This document shows, in pieces, positions 14,864 to 22,253 of a stretch of 53,160 bases of DNA. The notes beneath the pieces were generated by a model. It was not told the origin of the DNA, did no database searches, and worked only from the letters and a program-made list of their open reading frames with translations. Each line of letters starts with the position of its first letter. Within the stretch, counting starts at the first letter, position 1. This DNA is from Bacilli bacterium (lineage in GTDB: Bacteria; Bacillota_I; Bacilli_A; ML615J-28; CAG-313), in NCBI GenBank assembly GCA_017409905.1, contig JAFQRV010000018.1:1-53160 (forward strand), in the 5' to 3' direction. The translations under genes were made by a program, and so were the position numbers.

Positions 14864-15000
14864 TTAATTAAACCCCCGTTCAGTATAGAACTGAACGGGG
14901 GTTTTATATTTTAATGAGTATGCTAATCTTTGTGTGTTAAAATATTTAATATAATCTTTTATTGCTATATTAATATCCTCTGCTAAATATATTTTAAATA
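14864..15000 (-). pseudogene. 3' remnant of an IS3-family transposase (OrfB integrase core)
   Basis: Reading the minus strand upstream of the stop at 14866-14864 gives about 45 codons whose product has DYIKYFNTQRLAYSLKYKTP, the C-terminal end of IS3-type OrfB transposases (pattern YIxYxNxxR...L.YKTPxQ). Everything N-terminal, including the DDE core, is missing; the frame breaks at a stop near 15014 where the dispersed repeat begins. So this is a decayed insertion sequence, not a functional gene. Its final codons overlap a strong GC-rich hairpin. Confidence 0.65.
14870..14905. terminator. GC-rich hairpin ending the ECF gene (inside the IS remnant)
   Basis: Perfect stem AAACCCCCGTTCAG / CTGAACGGGGGTTT with loop TATAGAA, followed by TTTTA. 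It is far more GC-rich than its surroundings because it belongs to the IS remnant, yet lies where it would stop transcription from the ECF gene. Confidence 0.8.
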
Positions 15001-15043
15001 AAAAAATAAGCCATCATAGATGACTTATAGATTTCAAAAAATG
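14999..15043. repeat. Dispersed repeat, copy D (short)
   Basis: About 45 bp matching the right end of copies A-C: the AAATAAGCC arm, a GACTTATAGATTTCA core and AAAATG. On the minus strand it forms AAGTCATC/GATGGCTT with a U tract, a terminator-like hairpin placed downstream of the RelE-type toxin gene. Its stem differs from that of copy C by a compensating A-T/T-A swap. Confidence 0.6.
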
Positions 15044-18201: not shown

Positions 18202-18407
18202 TAATGGTTCGAGTCCGTGGTCAGTCTCCAATAGTTGTATTTACAACTATTAGTCATTAAATCTAAATGTTTCATAAATGTAAAAAAAAGAGGATATTCT
18301 AACCATTATTTGCTAAAATACCCTATATAATTAAAAAATAGATCCTCTTTAAGAGAAACTAGTTTCTCTAGAAGACCTACAGATTTCAGAAAATGTGTCA
18401 TTACGAC
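18202..18407. repeat. Dispersed repeat, copy A (long)
   Basis: Starts with a tRNA T-arm-like GGTTCGAGTCC and GTCAGTCTCCA, continues with a perfect palindrome AATAGTTGTA-TT-TACAACTATT (18230-18251), a conserved TAAATCTAAATGTTTCATAAAT block, an AAAGAGGAT/ATCCTCTTT inverted repeat around an 18-bp palindrome at 18352-18369, and the AGAAGACCTACAGATTTCA core. Copies B (20681) and C (22108) match in the same orientation. It separates ktrB from the Fic gene; nothing else lies in 18016-18525 beyond the ktrB leader and the 30-bp units. Confidence 0.75.
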
Positions 18408-20680: not shown

Positions 20681-20850
20681 TATTGGTTCGAGTCCGTGGT
20701 CAGTCTCCAATAGTTGTATTTACAACTATTAATTATTAAATCTAAATGTTGCATAAACAGGTAAAAAAAGACTATTTCACTATATTTCAAGCAAAACAGC
20801 CTACATAAATAAAAAAATAAGCCTTCATTCAGAAGACCTATAGATTTCAC
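20681..20850. repeat. Dispersed repeat, copy B (long)
   Basis: Same order as copy A: GGTTCGAGTCC, GTCAGTCTCCA, the AATAGTTGTA palindrome, the AAATCTAAATGTT block, then a terminator-like hairpin (AAGCCTTC / GAAGACCT) and the TATAGATTTCA core. The left 75 bases are nearly identical to copy A; the right half is closer to copy C. A minus-strand 63-codon frame across it is not a gene. It fills most of the 386-base gap between the hydrolase and DUF3800 genes. Confidence 0.75.
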
Positions 20851-20940
20851 AGAATGTTTCATTTTGAGCATTTACACTACAAAATGTTTCATATTCGAGT
20901 TTTACGCTACAAAAAGTTTCACAATGCAACTTTTAGTAGT
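20851..20940. repeat. Array of three degenerate 30-bp units (B array)
   Basis: Three contiguous 30-base units (20851-20880, 20881-20910, 20911-20940), each with AATGTTTCA or AAGTTTCA near its start; the first two end in ACACTAC and ACGCTAC and the third in AGTAGT. The period equals that of the A array but the conserved heptamer differs (GTTTCA against AAAGTG). Confidence 0.6.
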
Positions 20941-20983
20941 AATATAAAATTATTAAACAATACAAAAAGATTCATACAAGAAT

Positions 20984-21646
20984 TTACTTCTTTAAAACTT
21001 TTTTGTTAATCCCTTTAATATAATTTTTCTTTAAATGGTATACATTAACAAATTTTAATTCTGAATTAGATAATTCATTTTTATTTAGTTTCATTTCTAA
21101 AAGTTTTACTGTTGATACAAAATCTGCAACCTGAAATAATCTATATGATCCAGGAACAACTTCTTTTTTAAACTCATAATTCAAACCAGAAATTGCAAAC
21201 GCACCATTTAATATCTTAGTTATCAAATTTTGGCCATTATCATAATATATTATTATTTCATTAAATGAATTTAAATAATCGAAATTTTCTAATAAGAAAT
21301 TATAAACATCCTTTGTTATTTTAGCTTGCATTTTTAACAAGTCACTACTAAAGTCTTTCTTTTCATAACAAAAAGAAAAAAACTTTATTGGTAATGATAA
21401 TGTAAACAAAAAAATAGATTGAAATATTTTCTTTCTATCTTTCATTTCCATATTATCAAATGGGTACTCTCTTCTAATTATAGGACCAGCATGAAATATA
21501 GGATAGTCTTTAATTTTTTCAATATTACTCTTTATATCATCATTTTGATTATGCATTACAAAAGTAATAATATAATATTTTGATGCATCTTTAATAAATC
21601 CAACATCACCTGATTCATCAATAAAAATGCTTAAGACTTTCCCCAT
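20984..21646 (-). CDS. DUF3800 domain protein
   Basis: A 220-residue protein of the DUF3800 family, recognised by the N-terminal FIDESGDVG (Asp-Glu-Ser-Gly-Asp at 10-14) and by QVADFV in the C-terminal third; these acidic residues suggest an RNase H-like metal-dependent nuclease fold (inference). It is predicted cytosolic with a Lys-rich end. AGGAAGG precedes the start. It has a consensus promoter and a leader of about 100 bases with stable hairpins. DUF3800 genes are often found in mobile or defence-rich regions, which fits its setting between repeat copies B and C. Confidence 0.88.
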   Translation of the reverse strand: MGKVLSIFIDESGDVGFIKDASKYYIITFVMHNQNDDIKSNIEKIKDYPIFHAGPIIRREYPFDNMEMKDRKKIFQSIFLFTLSLPIKFFSFCYEKKDFSSDLLKMQAKITKDVYNFLLENFDYLNSFNEIIIYYDNGQNLITKILNGAFAISGLNYEFKKEVVPGSYRLFQVADFVSTVKLLEMKLNKNELSNSELKFVNVYHLKKNYIKGINKKVLKK

Positions 21647-21654
21647 AATTAATC

Positions 21655-21752
21655 CTTCCTATAAAAAATGGCAGGACTATTTCCTGCCGTTGGTGGACCA
21701 AGGCATACGCCAGCCCAAGTCATATGACAATAATATCATATGCATTTTTTAC
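21655..21752 (-). ncRNA. Structured RNA leader of the DUF3800 gene
   Basis: Read on the minus strand from the promoter: a CATATGA/TCATATG hairpin (21743-21722), a TTGG...CCAA helix enclosing a GGC-GTAT-GCC hairpin (21711-21702), then a 7-bp GGCAGGA/TCCTGCC hairpin (21688-21670, loop AATAG) followed by ATTTTTT, and then the ribosome site. The last hairpin plus U run looks like an intrinsic terminator placed before the gene. GC content is well above its surroundings. Several structured RNA motif classes upstream of DUF3800 genes have been described; which one this matches cannot be told here. Confidence 0.65.
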
Positions 21753-21758
21753 ATTTAT

Positions 21759-21787
21759 ATTCTATCAAAAAATATTTTATTTGTCAA
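21759..21787 (-). promoter_or_regulatory. Promoter of the DUF3800 leader
   Basis: Minus strand TTGACA (21787-21782), 17-base spacer, TAGAAT (21764-21759). Confidence 0.75.
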
Positions 21788-21952
21788 TAGTATAGACTGT
21801 TTAATAACTGGAAAAAGATTATCTAACTATATATTATTATATGCTTATTTTATACAAAGAAACACATTTTGTTGTGCGAACAAGTGTCATTACATCATAA
21901 ATGATACTTATATTTAATAAAAATTTAACTTCTTAGAGTCTATTTAAGAAAC

Positions 21953-22027
21953 TTATTTAATATCTAAAATTTTTAATCCCTCATCTAAAGCTTGGCCGTA
22001 CTTAGTTAAAAAGATCCCAGTTTTATA
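21953..22027 (-). pseudogene. Fragment of a winged-helix regulator (3' end)
   Basis: The minus strand holds about 24 codons bounded by stops whose product reads YKTGIFLTKYGQALDEG and ends GLKILDIK. The pattern (LTxxGxxL, then Leu-rich helix) matches the end of HxlR-like winged-helix regulators. No start or upstream part exists, so it is a relic. The rest of 21790-22107 shows only an ACTGAAT/ATTCAGT palindrome next to a TATAAT near 22040, perhaps an old operator. Confidence 0.35.
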
Positions 22028-22107
22028 TTAGAAATAATAAACTGAATCATTCAGTATAATAATTGGAATAAAAAATTTTTTATATTTATAAGATTTTGTC
22101 TGAGTAT

Positions 22108-22253
22108 CGGTAATTGTATTTACAACTATTAGTTATTAAATCTAAATGTTTCATAAATAGGTAAAAAAAAGACTATTTTACTATATTTCAAGCAAAATAT
22201 CCTACATAAATAAAAAAATAAGCCTTCATTCAGAAGACTTATAGATTTCAAAA
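22108..22253. repeat. Dispersed repeat, copy C, abutting tRNA-Glu
   Basis: Matches copies A and B from the palindrome region onward (here its left arm is mutated to ATTGTA) through TTTCATAAATAGG to the TATAGATTTCAAAAAATG core, and ends exactly at the CCA end of tRNA-Glu. It lacks the T-arm-like start and the 30-bp units. Confidence 0.72.
22208..22239 (-). terminator. tRNA-Glu terminator (part of repeat copy C)
   Basis: Stem 22218-22225 with 22231-22238 (eight pairs, one wobble), loop ATTCA; on the minus strand the run of Ts follows. The same hairpin recurs in copies B and D. Confidence 0.75.

Follow-up and report, generated by a model that had tools for sequence, protein, structure and literature searches.

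The sequence preceding the DUF3800 gene in the window (the whole 53,160-nt stretch of Bacilli DNA analyzed here) is a genuine and conserved RNA gene. Its class, DUF3800-XI, is already known, and it is ordinary as a member of that class. The DUF3800 protein of this clade was not seen on its own, whereas the RNA persists in genomes where the protein is gone. The layout of the locus and this asymmetry are observed directly; toxicity of the protein and its neutralization by the RNA are inferred. The two may form a small mobile module of RNA and nuclease, with the DUF3800 protein kept in check by the RNA and its transcription also limited by P2, the last hairpin of the RNA, a reading we hold at a probability of about one half. 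The locus lies where an earlier note on this DNA had placed it and is on the minus strand; its features are as follows.

21782-21787, minus strand: -35 hexamer, TTGACA (promoter scan)
21759-21764, minus strand: -10 hexamer, TAGAAT, TG-extended (promoter scan)
21663-21752, minus strand: predicted terminated small RNA of about 90 nt, ends predicted from sequence
21721-21742, minus strand: P0, variable 5' hairpin of 9 bp, CAUAUGAUA/UGUCAUAUG, optional across the family
21694-21717, minus strand: P1, conserved stem of 9 bp with a 2-nt bulge, UGGGCUGGC-GUAU-GCC-UU-GGUCCA (Rfam match, covariation)
21670-21688, minus strand: P2, conserved, terminator-like stem of 7 bp with a loop of 5, GGCAGGA/UCCUGCC (covariation, terminator scan)
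21663-21668, minus strand: run of six U past P2 (sequence, terminator scan)
21653-21660, minus strand: ribosome binding site, AGGAAGGA (sequence)
20984-21646, minus strand: DUF3800 gene, 220 aa, predicted RNase H-like fold (Pfam, AlphaFold2, alignment)

The leader has the consensus promoter that the earlier note had described, with a spacer of 17 nt and 11 of 12 matches. Between 20900 and 22250 there are 10 promoter-like sites, of which TTGACA-17-TAGAAT scores highest; shuffles of this stretch average 13.0 such sites, so that only the quality and position of the leader promoter are informative. Among homologous leaders, a promoter with at least 10/12 matches is present in 57 of 77, against 0 of 77 control stretches taken 500 nt upstream and 3.8% of shuffles; these 77 were retained from 93 leaders once near-duplicates, weak matches and leaders with short upstream sequence had been removed by hand. 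The start of the small RNA was inferred at about 7 nt past the -10 box and its end placed at the U run, which ends 17 nt upstream of the DUF3800 ATG at 21646. Two terminator-like sites occur in 20900-22250 where 0.2 are expected, namely P2 and another directly 3' of tRNA-Glu. The three hairpins of the earlier note correspond to P0, P1 and P2, the last with its 7 bp and six U before the ribosome binding site; its description of the leader as GC-rich holds for P1 and P2 and fails for the rest.

The distance from the -10 box to P1 is bimodal among the 57 strongly promoted leaders, being 4-11 nt in 17 and 21-50 nt in 40, the group to which the window leader belongs. In 34 of the 40 long gaps there is a stem of at least 6 pairs, against 31% of shuffles. 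As a short-gap group exists and stems fill most long gaps, P0 is an optional 5' hairpin. Judged from sequence, the DUF3800-XI RNA appears to be nearly all structure from its start to the U run. This bears on the ligand control proposed in the earlier note. In a riboswitch of this kind, a metabolite bound to the leader would choose between terminator and antiterminator. The folded leader and the terminator-like hairpin that precedes the ribosome binding site would suit such a switch, but a -10/P1 gap that is either short or mostly filled by the variable P0 leaves little room for an aptamer. Moreover, P1 and P2 do not overlap, the consensus fold of 69 leaders shows no conserved antiterminator or alternative helix, and the downstream gene is DUF3800 or absent rather than metabolic; that solitary RNAs without the DUF3800 gene exist also speaks against ligand control, which we regard as very improbable. 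The DUF3800 protein may itself process the leader, as the earlier note also suggested.

Both folding and comparison of sequences bear out the claim of a structured, terminator-ended leader. The predicted folding energy of the 90-nt RNA is -33.1 kcal/mol (z = -4.33), a value that none of 200 shuffles equaled, and a 122-nt version of the leader gives z = -4.14. P1 folded alone reaches only z = -1.83, and its support is therefore comparative. From 69 leaders aligned by MAFFT, an alignment not fitted to structure, RNAalifold recovered P1 and P2 unaided. In that alignment 95.0% of P1 and P2 cells are paired, and the compensatory changes to which the earlier note had pointed are present, with two-sided changes at 14 of the 17 pairs (6.9 in shuffles) and in 88 cells (15.0 in shuffles). 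None of 500 shuffles reached the observed values for pairing, covarying pairs or changed cells, and sliding the partners by one column lowered pairing to 54-64%. The comparative evidence thus sets the leader far beyond chance. Chance hairpins were ruled out, as was an ordinary terminator, by the covariation and by the covariance-model match given below.

The conserved part of the RNA consists of P1, a linker and P2, and a variable guide segment is absent. One pair of P1, at alignment columns 7-26, has letters in 68 sequences and is a U-G in all but one of them (67); this near-invariant wobble suggests recognition by a protein. The P2 part carries no pairs in the Rfam alignment of RF02975 but is a covarying helix among the 69 leaders. 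Since it is kept by paired changes, P2 belongs to the motif though Rfam models no helix there. The possibility of P2 being a mere generic terminator was set aside, its sequence being conserved and paired with two-sided changes. In some relatives the U tract past P2 is interrupted in the leader alignment, and termination there may therefore be weak.

The DUF3800-XI motif reportedly comes from the Weinberg 2017 set. At its own cut-offs, Rfam finds only a tRNA in the window. When matches are selected by E-value instead, DUF3800-XI (RF02975) is found in the leader at 21717-21673 with 26.0 bits (E 4e-4), below the gathering cut-off of 37.8 bits, which is an annotation threshold and no biological feature of the family. 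Two covariance models were built. The first, R1, came from 11 RNAs including the window, and its training rows share leaders with three (L153, L155 and L203) of the 80 loci discussed below. The second, R2, came from 43 homologous leaders; the window and its nearest relatives were kept out of it, as were L153, L155 and all solitary RNAs. With R2 the window leader scores 52.0 bits (E 8.3e-15) and is the sole match at E <= 1 in 53 kb. Of 12 homologues chosen for low R1 scores, 7 pass Rfam's RF02975 cut-off. Given the R2 match and these low-scoring homologues, the leader is a divergent DUF3800-XI RNA, and the earlier note's suggestion that it might belong to a published DUF3800 RNA class is upheld by both the Rfam and R2 models. 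We read the missed cut-off as a likely limit of the published model.

The window leader has the P1 feature of the class (a UGGGCU...GGUCCA stem, an inner helix and a conserved flank) and lies directly upstream of a DUF3800 gene. It resembles RF02975 in the sequence and shape of P1, in the linker, in the first part of P2 and in its position before DUF3800, and differs in scoring below the cut-off, in having a P1 inner helix of 3 bp, and in having a paired P2 and a P0 where the Rfam model has P2 without pairs and no P0. With R1 at E <= 0.01, 96 of 392 genomes match, of which only 8 reach 37 bits; hits scoring less than about 30 bits resemble generic terminators.

The gene product belongs to PF12686 (DUF3800, E = 1.5e-9), the only Pfam family matched at E <= 1, with no match to ToxN/AbiQ, CptN, TenpN or Abi_2, and PADLOC has no model matching the protein. 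Its predicted RNase H-like fold is unlike that of ToxN, which is not RNase H-like. Residues D10, E11, H32, H52, R58, R71, D136, Q172 and D175, among others, are invariant in 58 relatives, and D10, E11, D136 and D175 probably form the active site. For the AlphaFold2 model (pLDDT 94.5, pTM 0.91), the top matches among solved structures are RNase HII (Foldseek E 4.1e-5), with a superposition of Z 9.0 and an rmsd of 3.9 A over 166 aligned residues. RNase HII has in common with the predicted DUF3800 protein the RNase H fold, a DE(S/A/V)G-like start and conserved acidic residues, but the residues conserved elsewhere differ and hhalign gave a probability of 0.3% (58 sequences of the DUF3800 clade against 8 of RNase HII). 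Because the profile comparison shows no sequence link, we claim the fold and not the RNase HII family. The predicted fold agrees with the literature, where DUF3800 is described as an RNase H fold whose catalytic site is rearranged (PMC10910872; also PMC12669027). In two loci (L016 and L023) a DUF3800 domain is C-terminal in proteins of 370-385 aa, another architecture that lacks the DUF3800-XI RNA.

Five DUF3800 proteins served as queries against species genomes and yielded 471 relatives; the 80 best were retained. With R1 the RNA was found directly upstream in all 80 of these best-scoring relatives, 79 times at 30 bits or more. Of 14 viral loci, 13 likewise have it upstream by R1, 11 of them with at least 30 bits, and in the sole viral locus without it the protein match spans just 43 residues; a scan of viral contigs with one DUF3800 protein gave no match. 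This obligate pairing in the best 80 of 471 relatives, together with the predicted RNase H fold, would fit an RNA that is an activating cofactor rather than an inhibitor, the P1-P2 RNA and the protein making up a ribonucleoprotein that cleaves nucleic acids. DUF3800 proteins have been described as accessories of Cas12a2 and VI-F loci (PMC10910872, PMC12669027), which favors the same reading. However, the conserved P1-linker-P2 lacks a variable guide segment, and a cofactor does not readily account for the 8 genomes that have a solitary RNA and no such protein, so we consider a cofactor role unlikely.

In the same best 80 of 471 relatives, the median distance from RNA end to protein match is 22 nt, leaving little room for a second promoter. 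That spacing, the leader position, and P2 with its U run before the ribosome binding site would also suit a purely cis-acting autoregulation, in which the protein binds P1 of its own leader and tunes read-through of P2 and the RNA does nothing in trans. Against this reading stand the solitary RNA units, which keep their structure although the gene is missing, and we find it rather improbable.

Solitary copies of DUF3800-XI are common in the Bacilli searched (395 genomes). RF02975 was matched at E <= 0.02 in 14 of the 395, of which two doubtful matches were set aside, one in G346 and one in G128 that we take to be 16S rRNA. The RNA has a DUF3800 gene directly downstream in five (G000, G010, G036, G219 and G383) and none in seven (G002, G004, G009, G047, G238, G326 and G374); a further genome, G506, also has the RNA without DUF3800 downstream. 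A whole-genome profile search found no DUF3800 protein of this clade in these 8 genomes, which had been chosen for their solitary RNA, and found one in 4 of 4 linked genomes; incompleteness of metagenome-assembled genomes (G009 is 88% complete) and binning errors limit how far such proteins can be called absent. Nor was any DUF3800 remnant found within 9-16 kb around each of the 8 solitary RNAs. Two of the genomes, G002 and G009, have a DUF3800 of another subfamily elsewhere.

A second set was reached through linked loci, where R1 found 36 RNAs in 20 genomes. Of the 30 examined, 21 precede an intact gene and 3 a shortened or broken one, 5 have no gene, and 1 is truncated at the end of its contig. 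In three of the five geneless loci (L321, L322 and L337), a ribosome binding site and the first DUF3800-like codons are kept before the sequence diverges, and the solitary RNA of L003 has lost one P1 pair; some solitary RNAs may thus be recent remnants. All 13 solitary RNAs match R2, in whose training none took part, at 32.8-77.4 bits. The DUF3800 gene is damaged beside an intact RNA in L200, L211, L334, L341 and L344 (the broken genes of L200 and L211 stand beside RNAs of 39.1 and 42.7 bits), a state that fits decay of a cis element equally and therefore does not discriminate.

An RNA found without the protein and a protein never found without the RNA are the pattern expected of an antidote. 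The persistence of the RNA alone suggests that it acts as partner to the protein, perhaps as its antidote; a more modest alternative for the solitary RNAs is that a cis element decays more slowly. In Legionella, a DUF3800 gene, its subfamily not given, is listed among strain-specific essential genes by Tn-seq (PMC7811196), which is a poor fit to a plain toxin. That essentiality, like the predicted RNase H-like fold, would suit a reversed pair, in which the RNA is harmful and destroyed by the nuclease. But structurally intact RNA occurs in genomes without the protein, which makes a reversed pair so unlikely that we give it almost no credence.

The solitary RNAs have varied surroundings. The one at L281 (G326) is near a relaxase (PF03432) and a DUF3991/Toprim protein, and this stretch is probably on an integrative conjugative element. 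In L342 (1501-2238), a frame-broken stretch, which we take to be nucleotidyltransferase-like, and a HepT-like gene occupy the expected place of DUF3800 after the RNA. Those of L277 and L278 follow RhuM-family genes on the same strand, L278 being judged by its near-identity to L277, and that of L283 follows a Bro-N/Fic gene on the same strand.

The RNA and its gene appear to be one small, horizontally mobile module. Window positions 20736-21815 are 88.9% identical over 1,085 bp to a locus from another genus of the family (L153, genome G010), and this block comprises just the promoter, RNA, gene and repeat. The surrounding genes differ in L153, where the block is near what is presumably a ribosomal protein gene, and the similarity runs from about 30 nt ahead of the promoter to a point within the downstream repeat. 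Phylum labels mapped on a tree of 80 proteins require 9 changes, the minimum possible being 4, and well-supported branches force at least 5 changes for Spirochaetota; binning of metagenome-assembled genomes may add noise to this mixing, though Treponema bryantii NK4A124 and Butyrivibrio sp. MB2005, both with linked loci, are named strains.

Conserved partner genes were not found: among the 139 nearest neighbor proteins, no Pfam family occurs more than 3 times and no PADLOC family more than twice, AbiEi-like proteins occurring in 2. The neighbors seem to be mostly ordinary and diverse genes. Ten large proteins were left out of the 139-protein scan, and eight of them, scanned separately with PADLOC, gave Cas9 once and primase-helicase-like proteins twice. 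In a Spirochaetaceae bin (L221, 2516-5860), the RNA lies some 60 nt past the end of a Cas9 gene. Plasmids or phages as the main vehicle were considered and found unsupported, as tblastn with the L218 protein as the only query matched a single record among 72,556 from plasmids and a single one among 50,697 from phages. On a plasmid of Collinsella aerofaciens (NZ_OY725717.1; L363, 2900-3680), a DUF3800 gene with an internal stop is three genes past brxL of a BREX system. Its leader has promoter-like boxes, a GC-rich hairpin and a U run and is unmatched by R2; it possibly represents another DUF3800 RNA class.

The block ends in a repeat of about 133 bp with several copies in the window.

20711-20856, no strand assigned: copy downstream of the DUF3800 gene, 93-94% identical to the copy beside tRNA-Glu; also delimited as 20718-20849
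22118-22250: another copy
18239-18338: another copy
14995-15036: another copy

The repeat follows successive minus-strand genes (Fic, beta-lactamase-like, DUF3800 and one more) and also stands beside tRNA-Glu; one of the repeat-flanked minus-strand genes is presumably potassium transporter-like. Short stretches at 20685-20708 and 18206-18229 (GGTTCGAGTCC...), which we take to be tRNA 3'-end-like, precede two of the copies, as if left by insertions into tRNA genes. There are 9 matches to the repeat in this genome, 6 in a genus mate, 7 in G002 and 5 in G010, several of them near contig ends and after tRNA-like stretches, and the repeat may mark a tRNA-linked cassette hotspot. The scan found a terminator-like hairpin on its minus strand. 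An integron-like array was considered and is not favored, as the fold of the repeat is not beyond chance (z -1.16), its copies lie beside tRNA genes and the hairpin is terminator-like.

The nearest experimental precedent, as far as the published accounts consulted extend, is AbiF in C. difficile. There a SigA promoter is followed by an RNA of about 100 nt with structured motifs, a terminator, a ribosome binding site and abiF, with no promoter predicted between the RNA and abiF, and the RNA, RCd22, lowers abiF transcription in cis and neutralizes the toxin in trans (PMC12373285). The window has the same order of promoter, RNA, terminator, ribosome binding site and protein gene. However, RCd22 (RF03085) is another RNA family with two motif copies, its protein is of another family (Abi_2 rather than DUF3800), and toxicity is proven for AbiF only; Rfam and Pfam gave no match in the window to RF03085 (the abiF motif) or to Abi_2. 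Type III toxin-antitoxin operons are described as having one promoter, the RNA first, a Rho-independent terminator and then the nuclease gene (PMC5086642), a gene order that ToxIN, CptIN and TenpIN share with the window as far as sequence tells. The type III antitoxin is a tandem-repeat array, whereas the window has a single P1-P2 unit with one R2 match. By analogy, the window locus may work like AbiF/RCd22 and the type III operons, but it is a member of neither, having a different protein and an RNA from another family that comes as a single unit.

Under the preferred reading of a restraining RNA, the strong promoter would yield a short, almost wholly structured RNA ending at P2. If P2 acts as an intrinsic terminator, the RNA would be in excess and the DUF3800 message would be made only on read-through. 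P1, with its U-G wobble, and the linker would likely be the docking site for the predicted RNase H-fold nuclease, which the RNA in trans most likely would hold inactive, as RCd22 does AbiF and ToxI does ToxN. Free DUF3800 protein would then harm the cell or an invading phage.

The DUF3800-associated RNAs are candidate structured RNAs without known function. In the literature on DUF3800 and toxin-antitoxin systems that was searched, with subscription journals mostly outside its scope, no published statement that these RNAs are antitoxins was found, nor any paper naming DUF3800-XI, RF02975, a DUF3800 motif or a DUF3800 RNA. Tentatively, this could be a further RNA-antidote system, in which an RNase H-fold killer or anti-phage nuclease is held by a tiny RNA whose P2 is at once part of the antidote and a metering terminator, and in which solitary RNAs, such as the one beside a relaxase gene (L281), are stand-alone antidotes or counter-defence against foreign DUF3800 modules. 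The extended motif, with a covarying P2 and an optional P0, provides a more sensitive model for finding further cases. The interest of the locus is moderate and lies in its comparative pattern, from which a mechanism that can be tested emerges for RNAs whose function is not known. The asymmetry between a protein unseen without its RNA and an RNA that is often alone makes the role of the RNA testable by toxicity and rescue, and suggests that this RNase H-fold family relies on an RNA partner in the manner of AbiF and ToxIN.
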